From a virus, in the IMG/VR virus record IMGVR_UViG_3300045283_000084, positions 1 through 30,003 of that record: a stretch of 30,003 nucleotides of DNA; one strand, written 5' to 3'. Every line of letters begins with the position of its first letter. Within the stretch, counting starts at the first letter, position 1. The translations under genes were made by a program, and so were the position numbers. The notes beneath the pieces are model-generated. The model was not told where the DNA came from. It searched no databases and saw only the letters and a list, made by a program, of their open reading frames with translations. Below, piece after piece: positions 1,834 to 19,600 of the stretch.

Positions 1834-2112
1834 TCAGCCCTCCACAGTGAGAGAGGAAGCACGGAGAAGTTCGGGAAGCGTTTGCGCCAAAACGCGATAG
1901 TTATGCGCTTGGCAATCAACGATTTCTTGGAACGCTACGTAGAACGGGCGTCCACGCTGGATGACAACACCCGCATGGAGTTCGGCGGCTTTCTTGGCTT
2001 GGGTGCGATTAGAGAAGGTCTTAGCGCAATGCCCGTATTTGGTATCCTTTCCCAAAACGCGGGTGCCATCGGTCAGACGTACTTCGATGAGTTCGTATTC
2101 GATGCGCGACAT
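1834..2112 (-). CDS. Hypothetical phage protein
   Basis: This 92-residue protein has an N-terminal beta-rich part (YELIEVRLTDGTRVLG), a basic helical stretch (NRTQAKKAAELH), a second strand region (VVIQRGRPFYVAF) and a C-terminal helix. It resembles small uncharacterised proteins seen in phage accessory blocks, but I cannot name a family or function. The ATG at 2112 follows the previous TAA by one codon, with GGGAGGG upstream. It is the second gene of the leftward operon. Confidence 0.6.
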   Translation of the reverse strand: MSRIEYELIEVRLTDGTRVLGKDTKYGHCAKTFSNRTQAKKAAELHAGVVIQRGRPFYVAFQEIVDCQAHNYRVLAQTLPELLRASSLTVEG

Positions 2113-2115
2113 TGG

Positions 2116-2544
2116 TTAACGCCCTCCCTTGCGTGGCTGTTTCGCCAGGTCAAACAGCGAGATCGCGCCGGAATGGGCTCTATCCTCAATGCCCCACGCG
2201 GCCTGCTCGTATCCAGGCAGTCTACGAATGATGCCGGACTCAATCTTGTCAAGCGCTTGGCCGGCTGGAGTGTTCGTATAGTCGGGAACCTCGCAGGATT
2301 GGTATCTCAGGCAATGAACCGCCTTCAAAGCCTCAACCGCGGAAACCTTCGCCATCGGATCGTAGCGATAGCCCGAAACCTCCAAGCTCGAAGTCATCTC
2401 GTCATAGCGGCAATCCACCGAGGCAGCGTTGCCATTAGCCAAGAGCGTGAAGAGCTCGCCGCCGCTCATGTGAAGGTCAACCCGCACATTGATCGCGTTC
2501 ACAACGCAGGAAATGTGGGTCTGGGTGCAGAGGAAAGCAGACAT
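2116..2544 (-). CDS. Uncharacterised phage protein with YQSCE motif
   Basis: This is the first gene of the leftward operon and encodes 142 residues. AAGGAG six bases before the ATG is a strong ribosome-binding site. The order MSAFLC..., then VDCRYDEM, then ALKAVHCLRYQSCEVPDY, then IIRRLPGYEQAAWG matches, from memory, a common uncharacterised phage and plasmid family with a conserved YQSCE..D core. No enzymatic residues are known to me. Expression probably comes from a promoter between 2590 and 2617. The gene lies back to back with the terminase genes, so leftward and late operons may be controlled oppositely. Confidence 0.65.
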   Translation of the reverse strand: MSAFLCTQTHISCVVNAINVRVDLHMSGGELFTLLANGNAASVDCRYDEMTSSLEVSGYRYDPMAKVSAVEALKAVHCLRYQSCEVPDYTNTPAGQALDKIESGIIRRLPGYEQAAWGIEDRAHSGAISLFDLAKQPRKGGR

Positions 2545-2545
2545 T

Positions 2546-2574
2546 TTGACTCCTTTTCATTGCCGGGCTTTATT
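2546..2574 (+). promoter_or_regulatory. Candidate rightward promoter
   Basis: TTGACT (2546-2551) is followed after 17 bases by TTTATT (2569-2574), a fair match to a sigma-70-type promoter. It points at the terminase genes and would give a leader of about 30 bases. The region also contains a short GGGC...GCCC inverted repeat (2565-2578) that could be an operator. This is read by eye and is not proven. Confidence 0.4.
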
Positions 2575-2589
2575 GCCCTGACAAGATGT

Positions 2590-2617
2590 AATATAGGGCA
2601 TATGGCCTAATGCACAA
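2590..2617 (-). promoter_or_regulatory. Candidate leftward promoter
   Basis: On the minus strand TTGTGC (2617-2612) and TATATT (2595-2590) lie 16 bases apart, upstream of the YQSCE-family gene. The -10 match is good and the -35 match is partial. The element overlaps the start codon of the small terminase gene, so transcription in the two directions could interfere. Confidence 0.35.
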
Positions 2618-2975
2618 TACCCAATCTAAAACTCGTCAATCAACTGTTTCCGCTGAAACATCGGTTAAATCTTCGGCTCCGCTTATTCCGCAACCTCACG
2701 GTGGGGCGCTCAGTGCTGGCAATCCAGGCAACAAAGGCGGTGGACGCCCTCCAGCGGCATTTAAAGCCTTTCTAGCGCAGCTCAGGGCTGATCCTAAAGC
2801 GCAAGAGGCTTTCGAGGCGGCTGCACACGACGCAACGTCACGTAACTTTAGTGCAGCGTGGAAAATCGCCGCTGAGTACGACGACGACAAGCCCGCCGAG
2901 AAGCACGCGATCGCAGGAAAGGTAGAGGTGACTGTTCGTATACAGCGGGAAGGAAGGCGGTTGACGAACTCATGA
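2610..2975 (+). CDS. Putative terminase small subunit
   Basis: The 121-residue protein has a disordered Ser/Thr/Gln N-terminus. A basic Gly/Pro-rich segment GNPGNKGGGRPP (about residues 37-48) follows, resembling an AT-hook-like DNA contact, and then helices (FKAFLAQLRADPKAQEAFEAA). Proteins of this shape, directly upstream of the large terminase, often recognise viral DNA for packaging; similar ones are annotated as small terminase. I see no classical helix-turn-helix, so the call leans on position. The start follows only a weak ribosome site. The stop overlaps the next start as ATGA. Confidence 0.55.
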   Translation: MHNTQSKTRQSTVSAETSVKSSAPLIPQPHGGALSAGNPGNKGGGRPPAAFKAFLAQLRADPKAQEAFEAAAHDATSRNFSAAWKIAAEYDDDKPAEKHAIAGKVEVTVRIQREGRRLTNS

Positions 2976-3196
2976 GTACTGGAAGGCGGATAGTCCAGAG
3001 CATCGCCCGTGCTGACTTTGATCGTCTTGTTGCAGCTGGGGTGAAGTGGCCTGAGGCGATGACAGAAGAGGATTACTTCGCCCGATTGTTCGCTCCTGCT
3101 GGCGCCTTCGGCGCCAGTGATAGCCCCGACAAGCTCAACAGTATACCAGAAAACGCGACAAAGTATCCCGCTTCTGGACGATATACCCCGGAATGA
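2972..3196 (+). CDS. Hypothetical protein between terminase genes
   Basis: This 74-residue protein has no family that I recognise. Its first part is helical (IVQSIARADFDRLVAAGV) and its tail is Pro/Ser-rich. It is joined to both neighbours by ATGA overlaps, so its translation is probably coupled to both terminase subunits. It could be a packaging accessory factor or a second small-terminase component, by position only. A perfect hairpin (3099-3117) lies inside its coding sequence and encodes part of an Ala/Gly stretch. Confidence 0.5.
   Translation: MSTGRRIVQSIARADFDRLVAAGVKWPEAMTEEDYFARLFAPAGAFGASDSPDKLNSIPENATKYPASGRYTPE
3099..3117. other. Perfect intragenic hairpin
   Basis: CTGGCGCC and GGCGCCAG pair over eight bases around a three-base TTC loop. 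It lies about 76 bases before the large terminase start. It could slow ribosomes or nucleases between the two terminase genes. No T-run follows, so it is not a typical terminator. Confidence 0.45.
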
Positions 3197-4758
3197 GTGC
3201 CACCATCGCGCCAACAGTAGCCGAAGGCGAGCTCGTACTACCTGAGCCCGTAGCCCAGCAACTCATCTGGTTGGACTCGCCCGCTCTACGCAAAGTGCTG
3301 CGCGTTGGCCGGCGTGGTATGAAGACCCGTTTTGCGTTCATCGCCTCACTCTTGGGTCACGGCCCCGGATGGGAAGATGGCACGCCACAGATGAAAGGGG
3401 TGTTAGCCGGGGGCGATGTCGTCTGGATCGCGCAGAACTACCCCAACCTAGCCACGGTCCTTTGGCGTGAGGAGATCATACCACGGATGGGGCATTTGCC
3501 GTGGATTGACCTGAACACCGTGCGCCACGATGTCGAGATACCAGGAGTCGGGGCGCTCATGCTCCGATCGGGAGACCGTGAAGCCATCGACTCAATCCGC
3601 GGTATCGGGAAACGGCTCTTTGGTGTCATCGTCGATGAAGCGGCTTGGCTCGACTTACGCGGTGCGCTCCAAGATGTCATCATACCAGCCCTGCTCGATA
3701 ACGATGGGTGGCTAATCATCATGTCCACGACCAACGCTGGCCCGGATGGTGGTTACGACGATACCGGGGCACCACAAGTCCCGAGCTATTTCAACTTGCT
3801 CTGCAAAGAGATACAGGCGAAGACGCGAAGCGTGGAGTGGGTGGAGTTCACGGGTACAGCGTTCGATAACCCGACCCTCTCACCCAAGGCGATCCAGGAC
3901 CTGATCGACGAGTACCCGCCGGATAGCCCGAAGTTGATGCAAGAGGTCTACGCTGCTCTCCTCGAAACGGGCGTAGGTCTAGCACTTCCGGGTCTGTCAG
4001 AAGCCACGCACATGGTCAAAGCCTTTCAGCCTCCAGATCATTGGCACCGCTGGTACTCCTTCGATTGGGGCTACCACCACCCGTGGGCTTTTGGCTCCTA
4101 CACGATCGACGAGGACGGACAGGTCTATATGTGCGATGGCGTTACCGGACGAATGGACTTGCCCGAACAGATCGACGAAAAGCTACGGAAAGCTGGTGTC
4201 GATCCACGTTATAACGTCTTCGCCGGTCCCGATGTCTGGCGTACTCGGGTGAGTGAGAAGGGGAAGATCATGGGCCAGTTCGAGGGGCCGACTGTGGCTG
4301 AGCGATTGCAGCAGTTGGGTTGGAAACTGGTGCCAGCCGCTGATGCGAGAGTCGCAGGCTTGAACAACCTACGTCGCTACACGTTCATCGACCCGATCAA
4401 ACAGAATCGCCCACGCTTCTTGTGGATGGATACGCCGAATAATAAGGCGTGCCTCGCACAAGCAGCACGTATGCCGCTCGATCCGAAGAACCCTGAGGAT
4501 GCGTTGAAGGTGAACGCTGACGCAGCGGGTAGAGGTGGAGATGACCTTTGGGACAGTTTGAGGTATGGTTTAATGGCCCGTCCACTGCTATCTTTGGCGC
4601 CACCCGCTCAAGATGAGGAAGGGAAAGCTATGCCGTATGATTTCGACAAGAAGCAACAGCGGAAGCGCGAGACGGGGGACGAAGCGTTGGCGAAGCTGAT
4701 TGGCGTCCCGCAGTCGCTTGTTGCTGGCCGTTACCGCGTGCCGGTGCGTCGCGGATGA
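3193..4758 (+). CDS. terL: Terminase large subunit
   Basis: This is the DNA-packaging motor ATPase and nuclease, 521 residues, usual length for the family. The ATPase part shows a Walker A-like GRRGMKTR (about 39-46), Walker B hydrophobic run VIVDE (145-149) with catalytic Glu149, and a coupling motif MSTT (177-180). The RNase H-like nuclease part shows acidic residues in FDWG (Asp291), AGPDVW (Asp347) and GGDDLWDSL (Asp450, Asp451 and Asp454). All key positions are present, so it should be active. It acts at the portal during packaging and cuts concatemers. The ATG overlaps the preceding stop (ATGA), and its own stop overlaps the next start in the same way. Confidence 0.93.
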   Translation: MSATIAPTVAEGELVLPEPVAQQLIWLDSPALRKVLRVGRRGMKTRFAFIASLLGHGPGWEDGTPQMKGVLAGGDVVWIAQNYPNLATVLWREEIIPRMGHLPWIDLNTVRHDVEIPGVGALMLRSGDREAIDSIRGIGKRLFGVIVDEAAWLDLRGALQDVIIPALLDNDGWLIIMSTTNAGPDGGYDDTGAPQVPSYFNLLCKEIQAKTRSVEWVEFTGTAFDNPTLSPKAIQDLIDEYPPDSPKLMQEVYAALLETGVGLALPGLSEATHMVKAFQPPDHWHRWYSFDWGYHHPWAFGSYTIDEDGQVYMCDGVTGRMDLPEQIDEKLRKAGVDPRYNVFAGPDVWRTRVSEKGKIMGQFEGPTVAERLQQLGWKLVPAADARVAGLNNLRRYTFIDPIKQNRPRFLWMDTPNNKACLAQAARMPLDPKNPEDALKVNADAAGRGGDDLWDSLRYGLMARPLLSLAPPAQDEEGKAMPYDFDKKQQRKRETGDEALAKLIGVPQSLVAGRYRVPVRRG

Positions 4759-5009
4759 CCACAGGCAACGGCAAGATACTCTCACTGAGTGAGCAGGCGG
4801 GGAAGTTGGACTCGCATGGCCGACGCTTGAAGCACAGCGCCACGATCCAAGAGGTTCATGACATTGCGATCGAGGAGTCTGTCAAGGTGAACGAATGGTA
4901 TTGCGAACAACTGCCCGCGTTCGTCGCGAATATGATTGTCGATGGTCTAATCGCTCACGGATTGATTCCCGACCCCAAAGCCCTAGCCGCACCCGATGAC
5001 AAAGCATAA
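4755..5009 (+). CDS. Hypothetical helical protein after terminase
   Basis: This 84-residue protein is predicted by eye to be mostly alpha-helical, including a moderately hydrophobic segment [16 protein letters not shown] near residues 55-70. That segment is too short and polar for a sure membrane span. The family is not recognised. It starts at an ATGA overlap with the large terminase. Its last 14 bases overlap the HNH gene; the ending GCATAA suggests that the original stop was altered when that gene arrived. Confidence 0.55.
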
Positions 5010-5439
5010 TTATCCCGACTTTTGGGATTGGACGGTCCCCGAACCGAATACCGGCTGCCTCCTCTGGCTAGGCCCCGGACAAGGCAACGGCTACGGCTCC
5101 TATCGCCAGCGACAGGCGCATCGCGTAGCGTGGGAGTTGACCCATGGGCCGATTCCGAAAGGGAGCAGACGCCACGACTTCTGTGTGTGCCACACCTGTG
5201 ATGTCCGAGCGTGCGTTAACCCTGAGCATCTATTTCTCGGTTCGCAAACGGATAACATTGCCGACGCTACTCGCAAGAGACGCATGAAGGGCGGCAACCG
5301 CGATAAGACGCATTGCCCACAAGGCCATCCCTATGATGAGGCGAACACCCATCGGCCACCGAGTGGTGGGCGGCAATGTCGTGCATGTCACCGCGCCAAC
5401 GTGCTCAAGCATTATTACGCAGCGAAGGCACTCGCATGA
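4996..5439 (+). CDS. HNH homing-endonuclease-like protein 1
   Basis: This is a 147-residue predicted HNH nuclease. The core reads [14 protein letters not shown] (from residue 41), then [18 protein letters not shown] (65-82), carrying the HNH His/Asn/His positions and CxxC zinc ligands. A second Cys/His cluster lies at residues 107-131 (C107, H111, C128, C131). Free-standing HNH genes of this type in phages often act as mobile selfish elements that cut related genomes. It sits between packaging genes and portal and has no clear ribosome site. Its start lies inside the previous gene and its stop overlaps the next start (ATGA). A related copy lies on the other strand at 18251-18703. Confidence 0.88.
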
Positions 5440-6046: not shown

Positions 6047-8601
6047 CAAGTCCCTCCAAACCCGCTGGCACTCAACTACTTACGGGCTTACCCCAAGCCC
6101 TAGCTTCGCTACCGATAGACTCAAAGCTCAAAGCCACCTCTGGTGATCGTGGCGAGAATATCGGTCCTACAAACGGCACGCTCCAAACCCAGATAGGGAG
6201 CGCCTACACGAACGGCACTGAACCACAAGGCCAGCCCGATGAATACGCAGGCATGGGGCCGTGGCTCGAAGACGACGACAAGACAGTATTCGATTCCGTT
6301 CACGCGATGGTGTTGAGGCAAGAGATCATAGCCCTGAACCAACTCGCGCAGGACACGCACTGGATCTACGTAAAGCTGGGGTATCCGTGGTCCACGCTCA
6401 CGAAAAAGCCCGGCATCGACCGCTACGAGCAGTCCCTTCCCTACGGTTCGAGCGGTGTCACGATCCAGGCCGTTCCAAACAAAGCGTGGGACTTAATCAA
6501 CAAGACGACCGAAGCGCTGCTCGTTGACTTCCCACAGATCGAGGCCGAGCCGGGGGACGATGGCGAGAGAGCGACAGCAGCATCCGACTACATCACCCGA
6601 TTCCTCAAGCAGAACGCTTCTGAGCAGGGAACGAATGACGTAGTGCTCTGGAATGATCGGGTTGCCCGTAGCTTGACCTGTGCTTCCAGCTTCCTGGAGT
6701 GCTGGACTGATCCTACAGGCGGTGGTTACATCCCGCTCCAAATCCCGGCACACCCGCAGGCTGAGTCCCCGATGCAGCCAATGATCGGGCCGGACGGGAT
6801 GCCCACGGTCTCCCCGGTCTTGAGGTACGTCACGAGTGTGGGGCCTGATGGTCAGCCTACCGAGCAGAGCCAATTCACGGAAGATGCTACGAAAGCCGCT
6901 CCGCAGTGGCAGCCCAAGCTCATGGCTCAGAAGTGGCAAAACGAGCACATCCGCATCTACCCGGAATCGAAGACACTGGATCAGGCTGAGAAAGTAATCA
7001 TCCTGGGCTACTGCACGTTGGGTGAAGCGAAACGCAGATGGCCCACAGTCGCCGAGATGTCGGACGACGAACTGTCCAAGCTCTCAGACTGGACCCCACC
7101 TCGATACCCTGCACTTCTGCCCTTCTATTTGAGAGCAAGGTGGAAGCTGACCGATGGGCGGGACAAGGTGAAGCAAGGCTCGTCAGATGAGCGGGTCATG
7201 TTCTACTACCACCCGTTTATCAAAGCCTGCCCCGACTACAAGAAGGGCGCTGATATCGTTGTCACTGGAGCCTTCCAAGGCCGCATCATCGACAAGGGCT
7301 TCCTGTCTACCGAAGTCGAAGTGCCGGCTGACCCGACGACCGACCAAGGCCAGCCAACGGGAGAGACCAAGAACCAGAAGGAAACGCGGTGCATGGAGAT
7401 CCCGGTCGTCCAGATAACCCCAAGAGGCGATCCCGACGAACAGTCACCACGAGGCCGAGCGTATATCGAGCTATTCGCTGGCGCAGTCGAGAGCAACGCG
7501 CACCTGGCTTTGAGTGCCGCGGAGGTCATCGACAAAAACCTGCATCTGGAAGGTTACAGCGCGAGCACGAGTCCTGTCTCCGGCCAGCAACGCGAAGATT
7601 CAAGAGCCACGGGCGACCTAATCCCTCTAGTACGCGCTGAAGACAAGCCGACGTGGGGAGAGCCCGTCCAGTTCGAGTCCAATTTCTTCCGGCTCTACGA
7701 ACTGAGTGATGAGGCAATCAACTCTATCTCGTCGTCAGAACGTGCGGCGACTGGACAGGACAATGCTCCCGAGCGAAGCGGGAAGGCGATAGCTCTAGCG
7801 ACCTCCAACAACAACGTCTCGCTTGGCGGGATGAACAACGCGATAAATAACGCCTATTGCCGTTGGGCGCGTATCAAGGTCGAGCAGGCGATGTCCAAAT
7901 TCACGACCGCGCAACAGGTGAATTACGTCGGTGACGACGGGATATTCAAGCAGCAGGACGTGACGAGCGTTGACTTCGCGCTGGTCGGGAAGATGACGAT
8001 AAAGACGGGGACTGGAACCGTCACATCGCCCCAGCAGAAGTTGCAGGATTTGGCGGGTCTTACTCAGGGCGGGATGCTCAGCCAAGACGAGGCAGCCGAA
8101 GCGGCCAGACCCGCGTTCTCGCAACGGCTTGGTCTTCCGGCCTCAGCACACGAACAGCGTATCGAGCGACAGATAACGGCATTCTTGAAGGGTGTACCAA
8201 GCCCGGACTGGATCACGCAATGGCAGCAGTACACAGCGGCCAAGCAAGCCTACGACGCACAGCAGCAACAACTTGCAGCAGAACAACAGCAAGCGGCACT
8301 AGCGGCCCCCGGCCAGCAAGCGGCGGAACAGGCGACGCGACAGGATACTGCGAAGACTCAGGAATCCGCAGCAGCCCACCAGCGCGCGATTGAACTAGAG
8401 AATGTAAAGCACGAGTTAGCATTGCGGGCCGGGGATCATCAGCGCGCAAATACTCCCGCACCACCCCCACCGCCGGAACCAGCACCGAAAGAAGTAAAAG
8501 GCGACATCCATATCCACATCGGTGGCAAGAAAACGACTGTCATCAAGAAGAACCCCGATGGCTCTATGGTCGCGGAATCAACACCTGAGGAGGTGACGTA
8601 A
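6043..8601 (+). CDS. Portal protein, probable CTG start
   Basis: This large protein forms the portal ring through which DNA enters and leaves the capsid. From the ATG at 6253 it has 782 residues; from the CTG at 6043 it has 852. The CTG is preferred because it overlaps the previous stop as CTGA, AAAGG lies four bases upstream, the 70 added codons contain no stop, and otherwise a 206-base gap would break the packed operon. No ATG, GTG or TTG lies between. Portal identity rests on size, position after terminase, and the typical helical and wing-like sequence (INSISSSERAATGQDNAPERSGKAI, quoted here as SSERAATGQDNAPERSGKAI). The C-terminus is a Gln/Ala-rich coiled region, a Pro run, and GDIHIHIGGKK. 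Confidence 0.82.
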   Translation: MTSPSKPAGTQLLTGLPQALASLPIDSKLKATSGDRGENIGPTNGTLQTQIGSAYTNGTEPQGQPDEYAGMGPWLEDDDKTVFDSVHAMVLRQEIIALNQLAQDTHWIYVKLGYPWSTLTKKPGIDRYEQSLPYGSSGVTIQAVPNKAWDLINKTTEALLVDFPQIEAEPGDDGERATAASDYITRFLKQNASEQGTNDVVLWNDRVARSLTCASSFLECWTDPTGGGYIPLQIPAHPQAESPMQPMIGPDGMPTVSPVLRYVTSVGPDGQPTEQSQFTEDATKAAPQWQPKLMAQKWQNEHIRIYPESKTLDQAEKVIILGYCTLGEAKRRWPTVAEMSDDELSKLSDWTPPRYPALLPFYLRARWKLTDGRDKVKQGSSDERVMFYYHPFIKACPDYKKGADIVVTGAFQGRIIDKGFLSTEVEVPADPTTDQGQPTGETKNQKETRCMEIPVVQITPRGDPDEQSPRGRAYIELFAGAVESNAHLALSAAEVIDKNLHLEGYSASTSPVSGQQREDSRATGDLIPLVRAEDKPTWGEPVQFESNFFRLYELSDEAINSISSSERAATGQDNAPERSGKAIALATSNNNVSLGGMNNAINNAYCRWARIKVEQAMSKFTTAQQVNYVGDDGIFKQQDVTSVDFALVGKMTIKTGTGTVTSPQQKLQDLAGLTQGGMLSQDEAAEAARPAFSQRLGLPASAHEQRIERQITAFLKGVPSPDWITQWQQYTAAKQAYDAQQQQLAAEQQQAALAAPGQQAAEQATRQDTAKTQESAAAHQRAIELENVKHELALRAGDHQRANTPAPPPPPEPAPKEVKGDIHIHIGGKKTTVIKKNPDGSMVAESTPEEVT

Positions 8602-17381: not shown

Positions 17382-18269
17382 ATGCCCTACAGTCTGAGCC
17401 TTAAAGATTTCGTATTGCCTGAGTTCGAGGCACCGCCTCCCGAGAGTTGGGAGAAGCGGCTGCGCGAGATTTCGCCCAAGCTGTCCAACGCTTCGCATCT
17501 CAGGTTCAGGAAGTTCGCGCCTCGTGACGATTGGAAGGAATCACCCTTCAATCTCCAGCCCCATCGCCCCATGTGGGCGCTCTACGCAGCACTACCGATT
17601 CGGCTAGTCGAACCACTCACAGCAGAAGGTTTCCGCCTCCATTGGTCAGAACAGCCGACAATGGATCACTCCGATCCGAGCCGCCCCATGAGCGGGGAGC
17701 AGGCAGCCGCTAAAGCCTTAGTGTCCGATTATCAGCATTTCGTGTGGCATTCTGAAGGGCTGTACGTGAAGCCCTTCTGGCTCCTACAGGGCGAGTGGGG
17801 TGGGACTCCCGCGAAATTCACAGACCGCGAGAAGCGGTATCTGGATGGGGCAGGACAGTCGAGTATCCCGGCCCCTCCAGGTGCCTTCACTCCCTGTGTC
17901 TTCGATGAGCGGGCAGTCAAAGCCATTCTAATCCGTGACCGGCTTTTGGAGGCTGGGAAGCGATTCGATGAATTGGACAAAATGGACTCCCCGGAATCGA
18001 AGAAAGCTGAAGACGATCAAGCCGAGCTCGTATACCGAGAGACAGTCTTGCAGACCTTGGCCGAACTAGCCCAGCCGGCAACGGAATATATGCGTTCGCA
18101 ACTTGGCAAACGCGAAGTGGAAAGCGCGGTCGTTTCAGGCTTTCTTCGCCCCGCTCCCGAAAACCTTCCTGACACACTTTCTGTTTGGAGGGATCACTTT
18201 AAGACGACGGGCCAAATTCTATCGGCTACGGCCCCGACACAAAGAAAGGTTCAGGTGGGAATCGCATGA
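17382..18269 (+). CDS. Hypothetical phage protein
   Basis: This 295-residue protein is not recognised. It has mixed alpha/beta sequence with aromatic motifs ([35 protein letters not shown]), a Pro-rich loop and long charged helices ([19 protein letters not shown]). It could be a virion or assembly protein by context. The ATG at 17382 is three bases after the previous stop, with no clear ribosome site. Its last 19 bases overlap the end of the leftward HNH gene. The stop lies in GCATGACG, an ATGA with no present downstream gene. Confidence 0.6.
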
Positions 18270-18703
18270 CGCGCCTTGTTCTTGTAGAACCAGTTCAGGG
18301 AGTTTCTTCGAACACACTTACGACACTGGCGTCCGCGCGAGAATCGGTAGGTGTTTTCGGGCGTATACTCGTGCCCATTCTTACAATGCGTCTGTCGCCC
18401 AAACCATGTGCGGCCCTTCCGTTTACAGTCCGCAGCGTTGTCCGCAATGGTTCCCAAGAACAGATGATCGGGATTAACGCACGAGCGAACATCACAGGTG
18501 TGGCAAACGAGCATCGTTCCAATACGCTCTTTGCTGGCGGGAATGGGGCCATGCACCAATTCCCACGCGACGCGATGCGCCTTGCGCTCGCCGCCATTGA
18601 ACCATACTGCTCCGTATCCGTCCGAGCCGATCCGCCCAAGCCACAAGTAGCAGCCCGAGTTGGGTTCGGGGATCGAATTGTCCAAAAAGGTTCGTTTGTC
18701 CAC
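18251..18703 (-). CDS. HNH homing-endonuclease-like protein 2
   Basis: This is a 150-residue paralogue of the HNH protein at 4996-5439, but on the opposite strand to its neighbours. The shared landmarks are (I/V)PEPN(S/T)[22 protein letters not shown](A/S)CVNP(E/D)HLFLG and a C-terminal Cys/His cluster ending with RQCR. All HNH and zinc ligands appear intact. The GTG at 18703 has no good ribosome site. A GAGAGGG-preceded ATG at 18719 lies in another frame, so a small frameshift near the start is possible. Being antisense to the late operon, it needs its own promoter, which I cannot identify with confidence. Confidence 0.87.
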
Positions 18704-18745
18704 GCGCCCAATTTAGCATTTTTCCCTCTCACACACTAGGCCCAT

Positions 18746-19600
18746 ATGACCGCACCAGCGTATCCAACCGCTCCCTCGAAGCCCCAAGAACGTGGGGCTG
18801 CTACCACAGTATCACAGCGGGATCGTCGCTTTACATCGACCTTCTTCGACAACTACCGACACCAGCGATTTCCACAGGGCCGGCCATTCACGGGCCAAAG
18901 GGAGTTTCAGTCGGGCTCCTCAACCGAGAGCATCGCCGCGGGGTTCCTCCAATCAGATCTCCAGTGCGGAGAGTATTTCTGCGAGAACCCGGAACAGGGG
19001 CAGACGCTCGAAGAGAGGGCTTTGACGCTTGCCTCTGTCTGGAGTGCTCCTTGGCTCCCTCTCGCCAAATACTTCCGGTACGACTACAGACATCAGCGGA
19101 TCACGTATGCCTTGGACGCGATGATCGCGGACGAGCGGAACGGGCTCAACCGATACTGGGAAGCCGCAGCGAAATCGGCGGGCGAGAACGACATCATCGA
19201 CCCCCAGCGGCCCGACGCGGTTCCGTTCAGGATCAGAACGCTTCTCGGGAGCCCACGTACTTACATGGGGAAGATCAGGCTGGCCCAAGCCGCACAGGCA
19301 GGCGATCCGTGGTTGATGGGAGCGGTCGAGACACCGAACGAGGAGTTGGCGAAGATCCTGGGACTTGGGAAAGTCTCCTACGTCGGTGATACGAGGTATG
19401 GGGATGCTGAATACGTCATGGTGCCGGGCATCAAAACACCCGAGCCGTTGCTGACACCGGAAGCTGTACTCTCGGTCCCGATGGACAAGGTTCAGCAGAT
19501 GATTCAGGACGCCTTAGCGGCGCACGATGCAAAACGGAAGCAAGAAGCACAGGAGCGGATGGCACACGCACGGGCCTCGAAGAAAACAGGAGTGGTGTAA
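18746..19600 (+). CDS. Hypothetical phage protein
   Basis: This 284-residue protein is not recognised. It has an N-terminal region rich in Arg, Gln and Phe, a central helical part (LASVWSAPWLPLAKYFRYD; RITYALDAMIADERNGLNRY) and a highly charged C-terminal helix. Head-completion, adaptor or internal virion roles are possible by position. ATG at 18746 has no strong ribosome site; before the HNH gene arrived it may have overlapped the stop at 18269 as ATGA. Confidence 0.6.
   Translation: MTAPAYPTAPSKPQERGAATTVSQRDRRFTSTFFDNYRHQRFPQGRPFTGQREFQSGSSTESIAAGFLQSDLQCGEYFCENPEQGQTLEERALTLASVWSAPWLPLAKYFRYDYRHQRITYALDAMIADERNGLNRYWEAAAKSAGENDIIDPQRPDAVPFRIRTLLGSPRTYMGKIRLAQAAQAGDPWLMGAVETPNEELAKILGLGKVSYVGDTRYGDAEYVMVPGIKTPEPLLTPEAVLSVPMDKVQQMIQDALAAHDAKRKQEAQERMAHARASKKTGVV

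Follow-up and report, generated by a model that had tools for sequence, protein, structure and literature searches.

Background

Free-standing homing endonucleases of phages cut HEG-less alleles, and repair then copies the endonuclease gene across, according to the account given in part of PMC2988022. As described there, the cut made by the T4 free-standing nucleases often lies hundreds of bases from the insertion site; the point of insertion therefore need not be the target. The same account gives overlaps of 11-24 bp with the upstream ORF for T4 segC, segF, mobA and mobC, and describes mobE in nrdA of phage Aeh1 and mobA in T4 gene 60 as insertions inside a coding sequence. For phage ICP1, a combination of HNH-3 and a zinc finger is mentioned in a section of PMC10448857.

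Here we describe an HNH gene on the minus strand of a phage structural operon. It lies in a stretch of 30,003 bases of a virus record (hereafter “the window”), which encodes a terminase and a P22-like portal and has its structural operon on the plus strand. The locus resembles the T4 mob genes and the ICP1 HNH_3 proteins in that it encodes a small, predicted free-standing HNH nuclease with a cysteine-rich C-terminal tail, is patchy among relatives and is found between or overlapping structural genes. In those T4 genes the overlapped ORF is the one that precedes in reading order, whereas the antisense gene of the window overlaps its neighbour 3' end to 3' end.

The best-known parallel is T4 segD, also an antisense homing-type gene, situated between capsid genes 23 and 24. 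Unlike the gene in the window, segD belongs to the GIY-YIG family and lies 50 nt past the gene 23 stop. In the mycobacteriophages JAMaL and Apex (Coopervirus), as in the window, an antisense HNH gene faces the 3' end of a small post-portal gene; there, however, the entry is at the stop codon and the tail of the host gene is kept intact. Insertion within a coding sequence that alters the host protein is a feature shared with Aeh1 mobE and T4 mobA as presented in the relevant part of PMC2988022. Those two elements split an essential gene mid-way, whereas in the window the last codons alone are replaced. Our literature search, which covered part of the published record, found no report of the locus.

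Results

The HNH gene and its neighbours

The features discussed below are collected in Table 1.

Table 1 Features of the HNH locus and of the loci compared with it (positions in the window unless another record is named)
Feature	Position	Strand	Description
Upstream structural-region gene	17382..18269	+	ORF, 295 aa
Left insertion edge	18246..18256	.	split alignment, near-best position range
HNH endonuclease gene	18251..18703	-	GTG start, 150 aa, PF13392 and phrog_826
Left ATGAC copy	18266..18270	+	contains stop TGA 18267-18269; not significant
Stop-free frame, candidate relay	18266..18739	+	157 codons opposite the HNH gene; opens at the ATGA and closes at the old TAG
Right insertion edge	18714..18724	.	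split alignment, near-best position range
Former 3' end of the upstream gene, now stranded	18725..18739	+	P-L-T-H-stop; relative P-L-T-S-stop
Old intergenic spacer GCCCAT	18740..18745	+	relative: GCCCAAA
Right ATGAC copy	18746..18750	+	start of the downstream gene
Downstream gene	18746..19600	+	ORF, 284 aa, start ATGACC
First HNH gene	4996-5439	+	57% protein identity to the HNH gene at 18251-18703 (BLAST)
L074 (IMGVR_UViG_3300027896_000074), antisense HNH locus	1908-2732		37% G+C phage DNA

The HNH_3 domain of the predicted protein is complete (PF13392, E 3.4e-13, profile positions 1-45 of 46), and the protein matches phrog_826 with an E of 6.5e-37. A search by sequence for a solved structure gave no match. 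The gene is antisense to the operon and tail-to-tail with the upstream gene, whose ORF it overlaps by 19 nt. No promoter-like site was found on the minus strand upstream of its start at 18703 and its ribosome-binding site is weak (-2.4 kcal/mol), so its expression is uncertain. The absence of any Rfam family from the window and the orientation of the gene antisense to its neighbours agree with a free-standing gene, i.e., one outside an intron or intein. The C-terminal tails of 38 HNH relatives range from 4 to 131 residues, and tail length is therefore uninformative on the edge of the cassette. We also considered an HNH protein of the packaging type encoded beside the terminase, and rejected it: the terminase (3193-4758) is about 13 kb away and the HNH gene is absent in a relative.

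The upstream gene is 79% identical to P0006 of that relative; Pfam and PHROG searches with it gave no match, and the structure model of its product (mean pLDDT 33.8) is unusable. The downstream gene is 89% identical to P0005. Shine-Dalgarno pairing at its start is weak (leader score -2.4 kcal/mol), as it is at several other genes that start shortly after a stop. Among the 35 listed genes of the window, 4-nt overlaps are found at 10 of 34 junctions, and seven of those ten are of the ATGA form.

An empty site in a relative

In the relative, IMG/VR contig IMGVR_UViG_3300048797_000130, the two flanking genes are present with no intervening HNH gene. Relatives were sought through the flanking proteins (in scans of viral contigs), through alignment scans and through the presumed major capsid protein and the portal protein. 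One contig found in these searches extends across the junction; a second, L080, stops short of it. No further relatives came from genome scans or from tblastn searches against phages and plasmids, and contig L003 was discarded because it matched an unrelated ORF by chance. The HNH gene is thus absent from the single relative that covers the junction (1/1), where the empty site is seen, which agrees with a patchy occurrence.

In the relative, the upstream gene ends with CAAAAGAAAATCATGTCACCCCTCACATCCTAG, followed by the spacer GCCCAAA and the ATG of the next gene, the TAG standing 7 nt before this ATG. Directly to the right of its HNH gene the window reads CATTTTTCCCTCTCACACACTAGGCCCATATG. The old junction is still present there at 18717-18745, with the old stop codon (TAG, 18737-18739) left 6 nt before the downstream start. 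The local alignment score of this strip against the gene end and spacer of the relative is 15. Random 42-mers taken from the window never attained this value (0 of 20000, maximum 12), and neither did any leader among 32 other genes, for which the maximum was 8. In a BLAST comparison a separate segment begins at 18725, upstream of the downstream start codon.

On the left side, the identity of the upstream protein to its counterpart stops at K289, after which the relative has IMSPLTS-stop and the window VQVGIA-stop. Past the HNH gene the old ending, AFFPLTH-stop, can still be read in the old stop's frame; the relative has QKKIMSPLTS-stop. The last six or so residues of the upstream protein, VQVGIA, therefore appear to be a non-ancestral tail of similar length, derived from the junction and the edge of the insert. 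The insert measures about 467 bp, hardly exceeding the 453-nt HNH ORF. With one relative, whose DNA identity around the junction is 71-78%, the edges are given only as ranges (11 position pairs score no more than 2 below the best split alignment) and the direction of change by parsimony. From the stranded coding strip and this one relative we infer that the window holds the derived state. At this resolution the alignment locates each edge to within about 10 nt and shows the stranded stop and spacer and the changed C-terminal tail. The stranded tail allows the insertion point to be read even where no very close relative is at hand.

Origin of the cassette

We consider it probable that an HNH homing-type cassette of about 467 bp was inserted in the last codons of the upstream gene. 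A compact cassette consisting almost solely of the minus-strand HNH gene would have entered the structural operon in these final codons. The upstream gene would have lost its native ending and received a new stop, its old tail and stop being stranded on the right side. The HNH protein would be active as a free-standing nuclease of the homing type: it would cut HEG-less alleles close to the site, and repair after the cut would copy the cassette into such an allele. Landing in an expendable gene end, stop facing stop, may have made the insertion tolerable. Homing would be consistent with the domain found, with the patchy occurrence and with the empty site, although cutting and homing themselves are presumed from comparison. 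An antisense homing-type gene could in this way reside in a structural operon at little cost: the gene end is expendable, a new stop is lent and the downstream start is untouched. The cassette itself is of a known kind, a free-standing HNH homing-type gene; only its footprint is relocated.

An insertion would also be expected if the cassette were a moron acquired by illegitimate recombination and had no part in homing. Relatives of the HNH protein are located at many unrelated places and the expression signals are weak, both of which suit a moron. Against it speak the patchy occurrence between relatives and the complete HNH_3 domain, which is of a type known from free-standing nucleases of phages, and we regard this origin as unlikely.

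With two alleles known, the opposite history is conceivable, in which the HNH gene is ancestral and a precise deletion in the relative fused the upstream gene to an in-frame tail. We judge it to be very unlikely. Positions 18725-18739 of the window, which are non-coding for the upstream gene, match the coding tail and stop of the relative, and the deletion would have needed to create that tail.

A preliminary description of the window had proposed another footprint, namely that the cassette sits between two copies of ATGAC, that its removal restores an ancestral ATGA overlap, and that neither protein was changed. The motif is indeed present at both places: the upstream ORF stops in GCATGACG and the downstream ORF begins with ATGACC. 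An in silico deletion of 18266-18745 leaves both ORFs intact and yields an ATGA junction. The relative, however, reads TAG-GCCCAAA-ATG, and TAG-GCCCAT-ATG has been preserved in the window on the right side of the HNH gene. The HNH-less allele is accordingly not joined as ATGA; in this one relative other sequence and a gap are found at the junction, which is the outcome named beforehand as contrary to the proposal. The minus-strand gene is not confined between the two copies, as it extends past the left one into the upstream ORF, and the end of the upstream protein differs from that of the relative. In the split alignment the boundaries at the repeats score 9, compared with 39.5 for the best ones. 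Nor does the 5-nt repeat exceed chance: 9 of the 35 listed genes start with ATGAC, the stop region at 18269 has a 5-mer in common with 12 of the 35 gene starts, and a common 5-mer is found in 126 of 1122 non-adjacent pairs of stop regions and starts. Insertion of an HNH gene at this gene junction thus stands, borne out by the HNH-less relative, while a clean insertion between the ATGAC copies is contradicted by this one relative and highly improbable. Caution is needed in taking short repeats of the ATGA type as footprints where many genes start with ATGAC. A 4-nt repeat, GCAT at 18264 and 18716, is also frame-restoring; it scores 23 against 39.5, and a shared 4-mer is often expected. Other short repeats at the ends of the insert do not agree with the aligned edges.

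A group I intron that houses the HNH gene, with the stranded tail as a second exon that splicing could rejoin, is a scarcely credible alternative, since the insert is barely longer than the 453-nt HNH ORF, the Rfam search of the window gave no match and the region folds no better than shuffled sequences (z 0.68).

Antisense placement in other phages

The placement of an antisense HNH gene facing the end of an upstream gene recurs. Among deduplicated IMG/VR loci in which the HNH gene has a convergent neighbour, the two stops lie within 30 nt of each other in 9 of 17; this count draws on 54 of 70 loci (11 duplicates, two short loci and three without a hit were dropped) and on ORFs called by a crude rule. 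In JAMaL and Apex the antisense HNH gene is situated exactly at the stop codon of gene 10, and Nigel, Adawi and Zemanar have the empty site, the tail of the gene being intact.

JAMaL (KF493881), Apex and phi1_186018 have an antisense HNH stretch that separates gene 10 from the capsid gene. In phi1_186018 the matching stretch has 82% DNA identity and is annotated as several short hypothetical proteins; it is perhaps a decayed HNH copy.

An open frame on the operon strand

Opposite the HNH gene, the operon strand has a stop-free frame (18266-18739), with which family searches gave no match. Upstream of its ATG at 18266 is AGGTGG, with a Shine-Dalgarno-like pairing of -7.5 kcal/mol, and its end, the old TAG, is 6 nt before the weakly led downstream start. 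Such a frame could relay ribosomes across the insert to the downstream gene, a reading that we consider doubtful. A relay would keep the old coupling of stop and start and avoid polarity. The probability of an open frame by chance, given the HNH protein, is 0.057 with the codon usage of this phage and 0.10 with local usage, and a Fisher test against the neighbours gives a P of 0.14. The support for a relay within the window is weak. If it were true, it would account for the escape of antisense genes from polarity, and if antisense homing genes are selected to keep their opposite strand free of stops, this would be a new rule.

A frame of like anatomy is found in the relative itself (contig L001), where it is opposite a different antisense HNH gene at another junction: it spans 6686-7303, opens at an ATGA stop and closes at a TAG that overlaps the start of the following gene (ATGGCTAG). 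Its openness has a P of 0.16 (Fisher 0.60). The L001 gene is 36% identical to that of the window and is located where the window has a 666-aa spike gene; a spike gene was not found in the examined parts of the L001 contig.

The operon strand is not stop-free in T4 segD, where 9 of 22 Leu and Ser codons give stops, nor in the JAMaL HNH gene (5 of 23), and the frames of L022, L035, L040 and L068 are closed. We surveyed 68 HNH genes, i.e., 65 of the 70 IMG/VR loci and three from this phage pair, with near-duplicates retained and crude ORF calling. Open codon-aligned frames were observed for 5 of 11 antisense HNH genes (2.08 expected), 5 of 35 sense genes (2.6 expected) and 4 of 22 mixed ones (3.9 expected). 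The codons TTA, CTA and TCA occur 19 times in antisense HNH genes compared with 40.2 expected (about 28.2 when L074 is left out, with 19 observed), and 199 times in sense HNH genes compared with 142.4 expected. Given these counts and the closed frames of segD and JAMaL, a relay frame as a general rule is unsupported.

One locus of the survey, L074, shows the relay anatomy strongly, in AT-rich DNA and with chance excluded. Its HNH gene has no TTA, CTA or TCA among 27 Leu and Ser codons, compared with 55 of 116 in two neighbours (P 3.7e-7, with about 70 genes examined). The A-ending codons in four-fold boxes are no different (17/49 vs 110/278, P 0.63). The operon strand there has a 272-codon open frame, without a family match, whose end overlaps the downstream gene in an ATGA; the remaining two antisense frames contain 18 and 23 stops.

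Other features of the window

The first HNH gene of the window overlaps the previous gene by 14 nt and has almost no Shine-Dalgarno pairing. It is present in neither of two relatives (0/2; L080 and G001), which have other small ORFs there instead. That relatives lack this class of gene or have it elsewhere is in keeping with a homing-type cassette. A different HNH gene is found in L080 near 2845-3213.

Positions 614-650 and 1010-1075 have short matches to several dispersed places of the relative contig, in both orientations, and stretches near them match L080. No repeat of 20 nt was found inside the window in the region around 614-1075. These stretches are possibly a shared dispersed element.

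A plus-strand frame of 460 codons at 1228-2610 extends up to where the next gene starts. It is antisense to the minus-strand ORFs 1834-2112 and 2116-2544, and the region is open on both strands.
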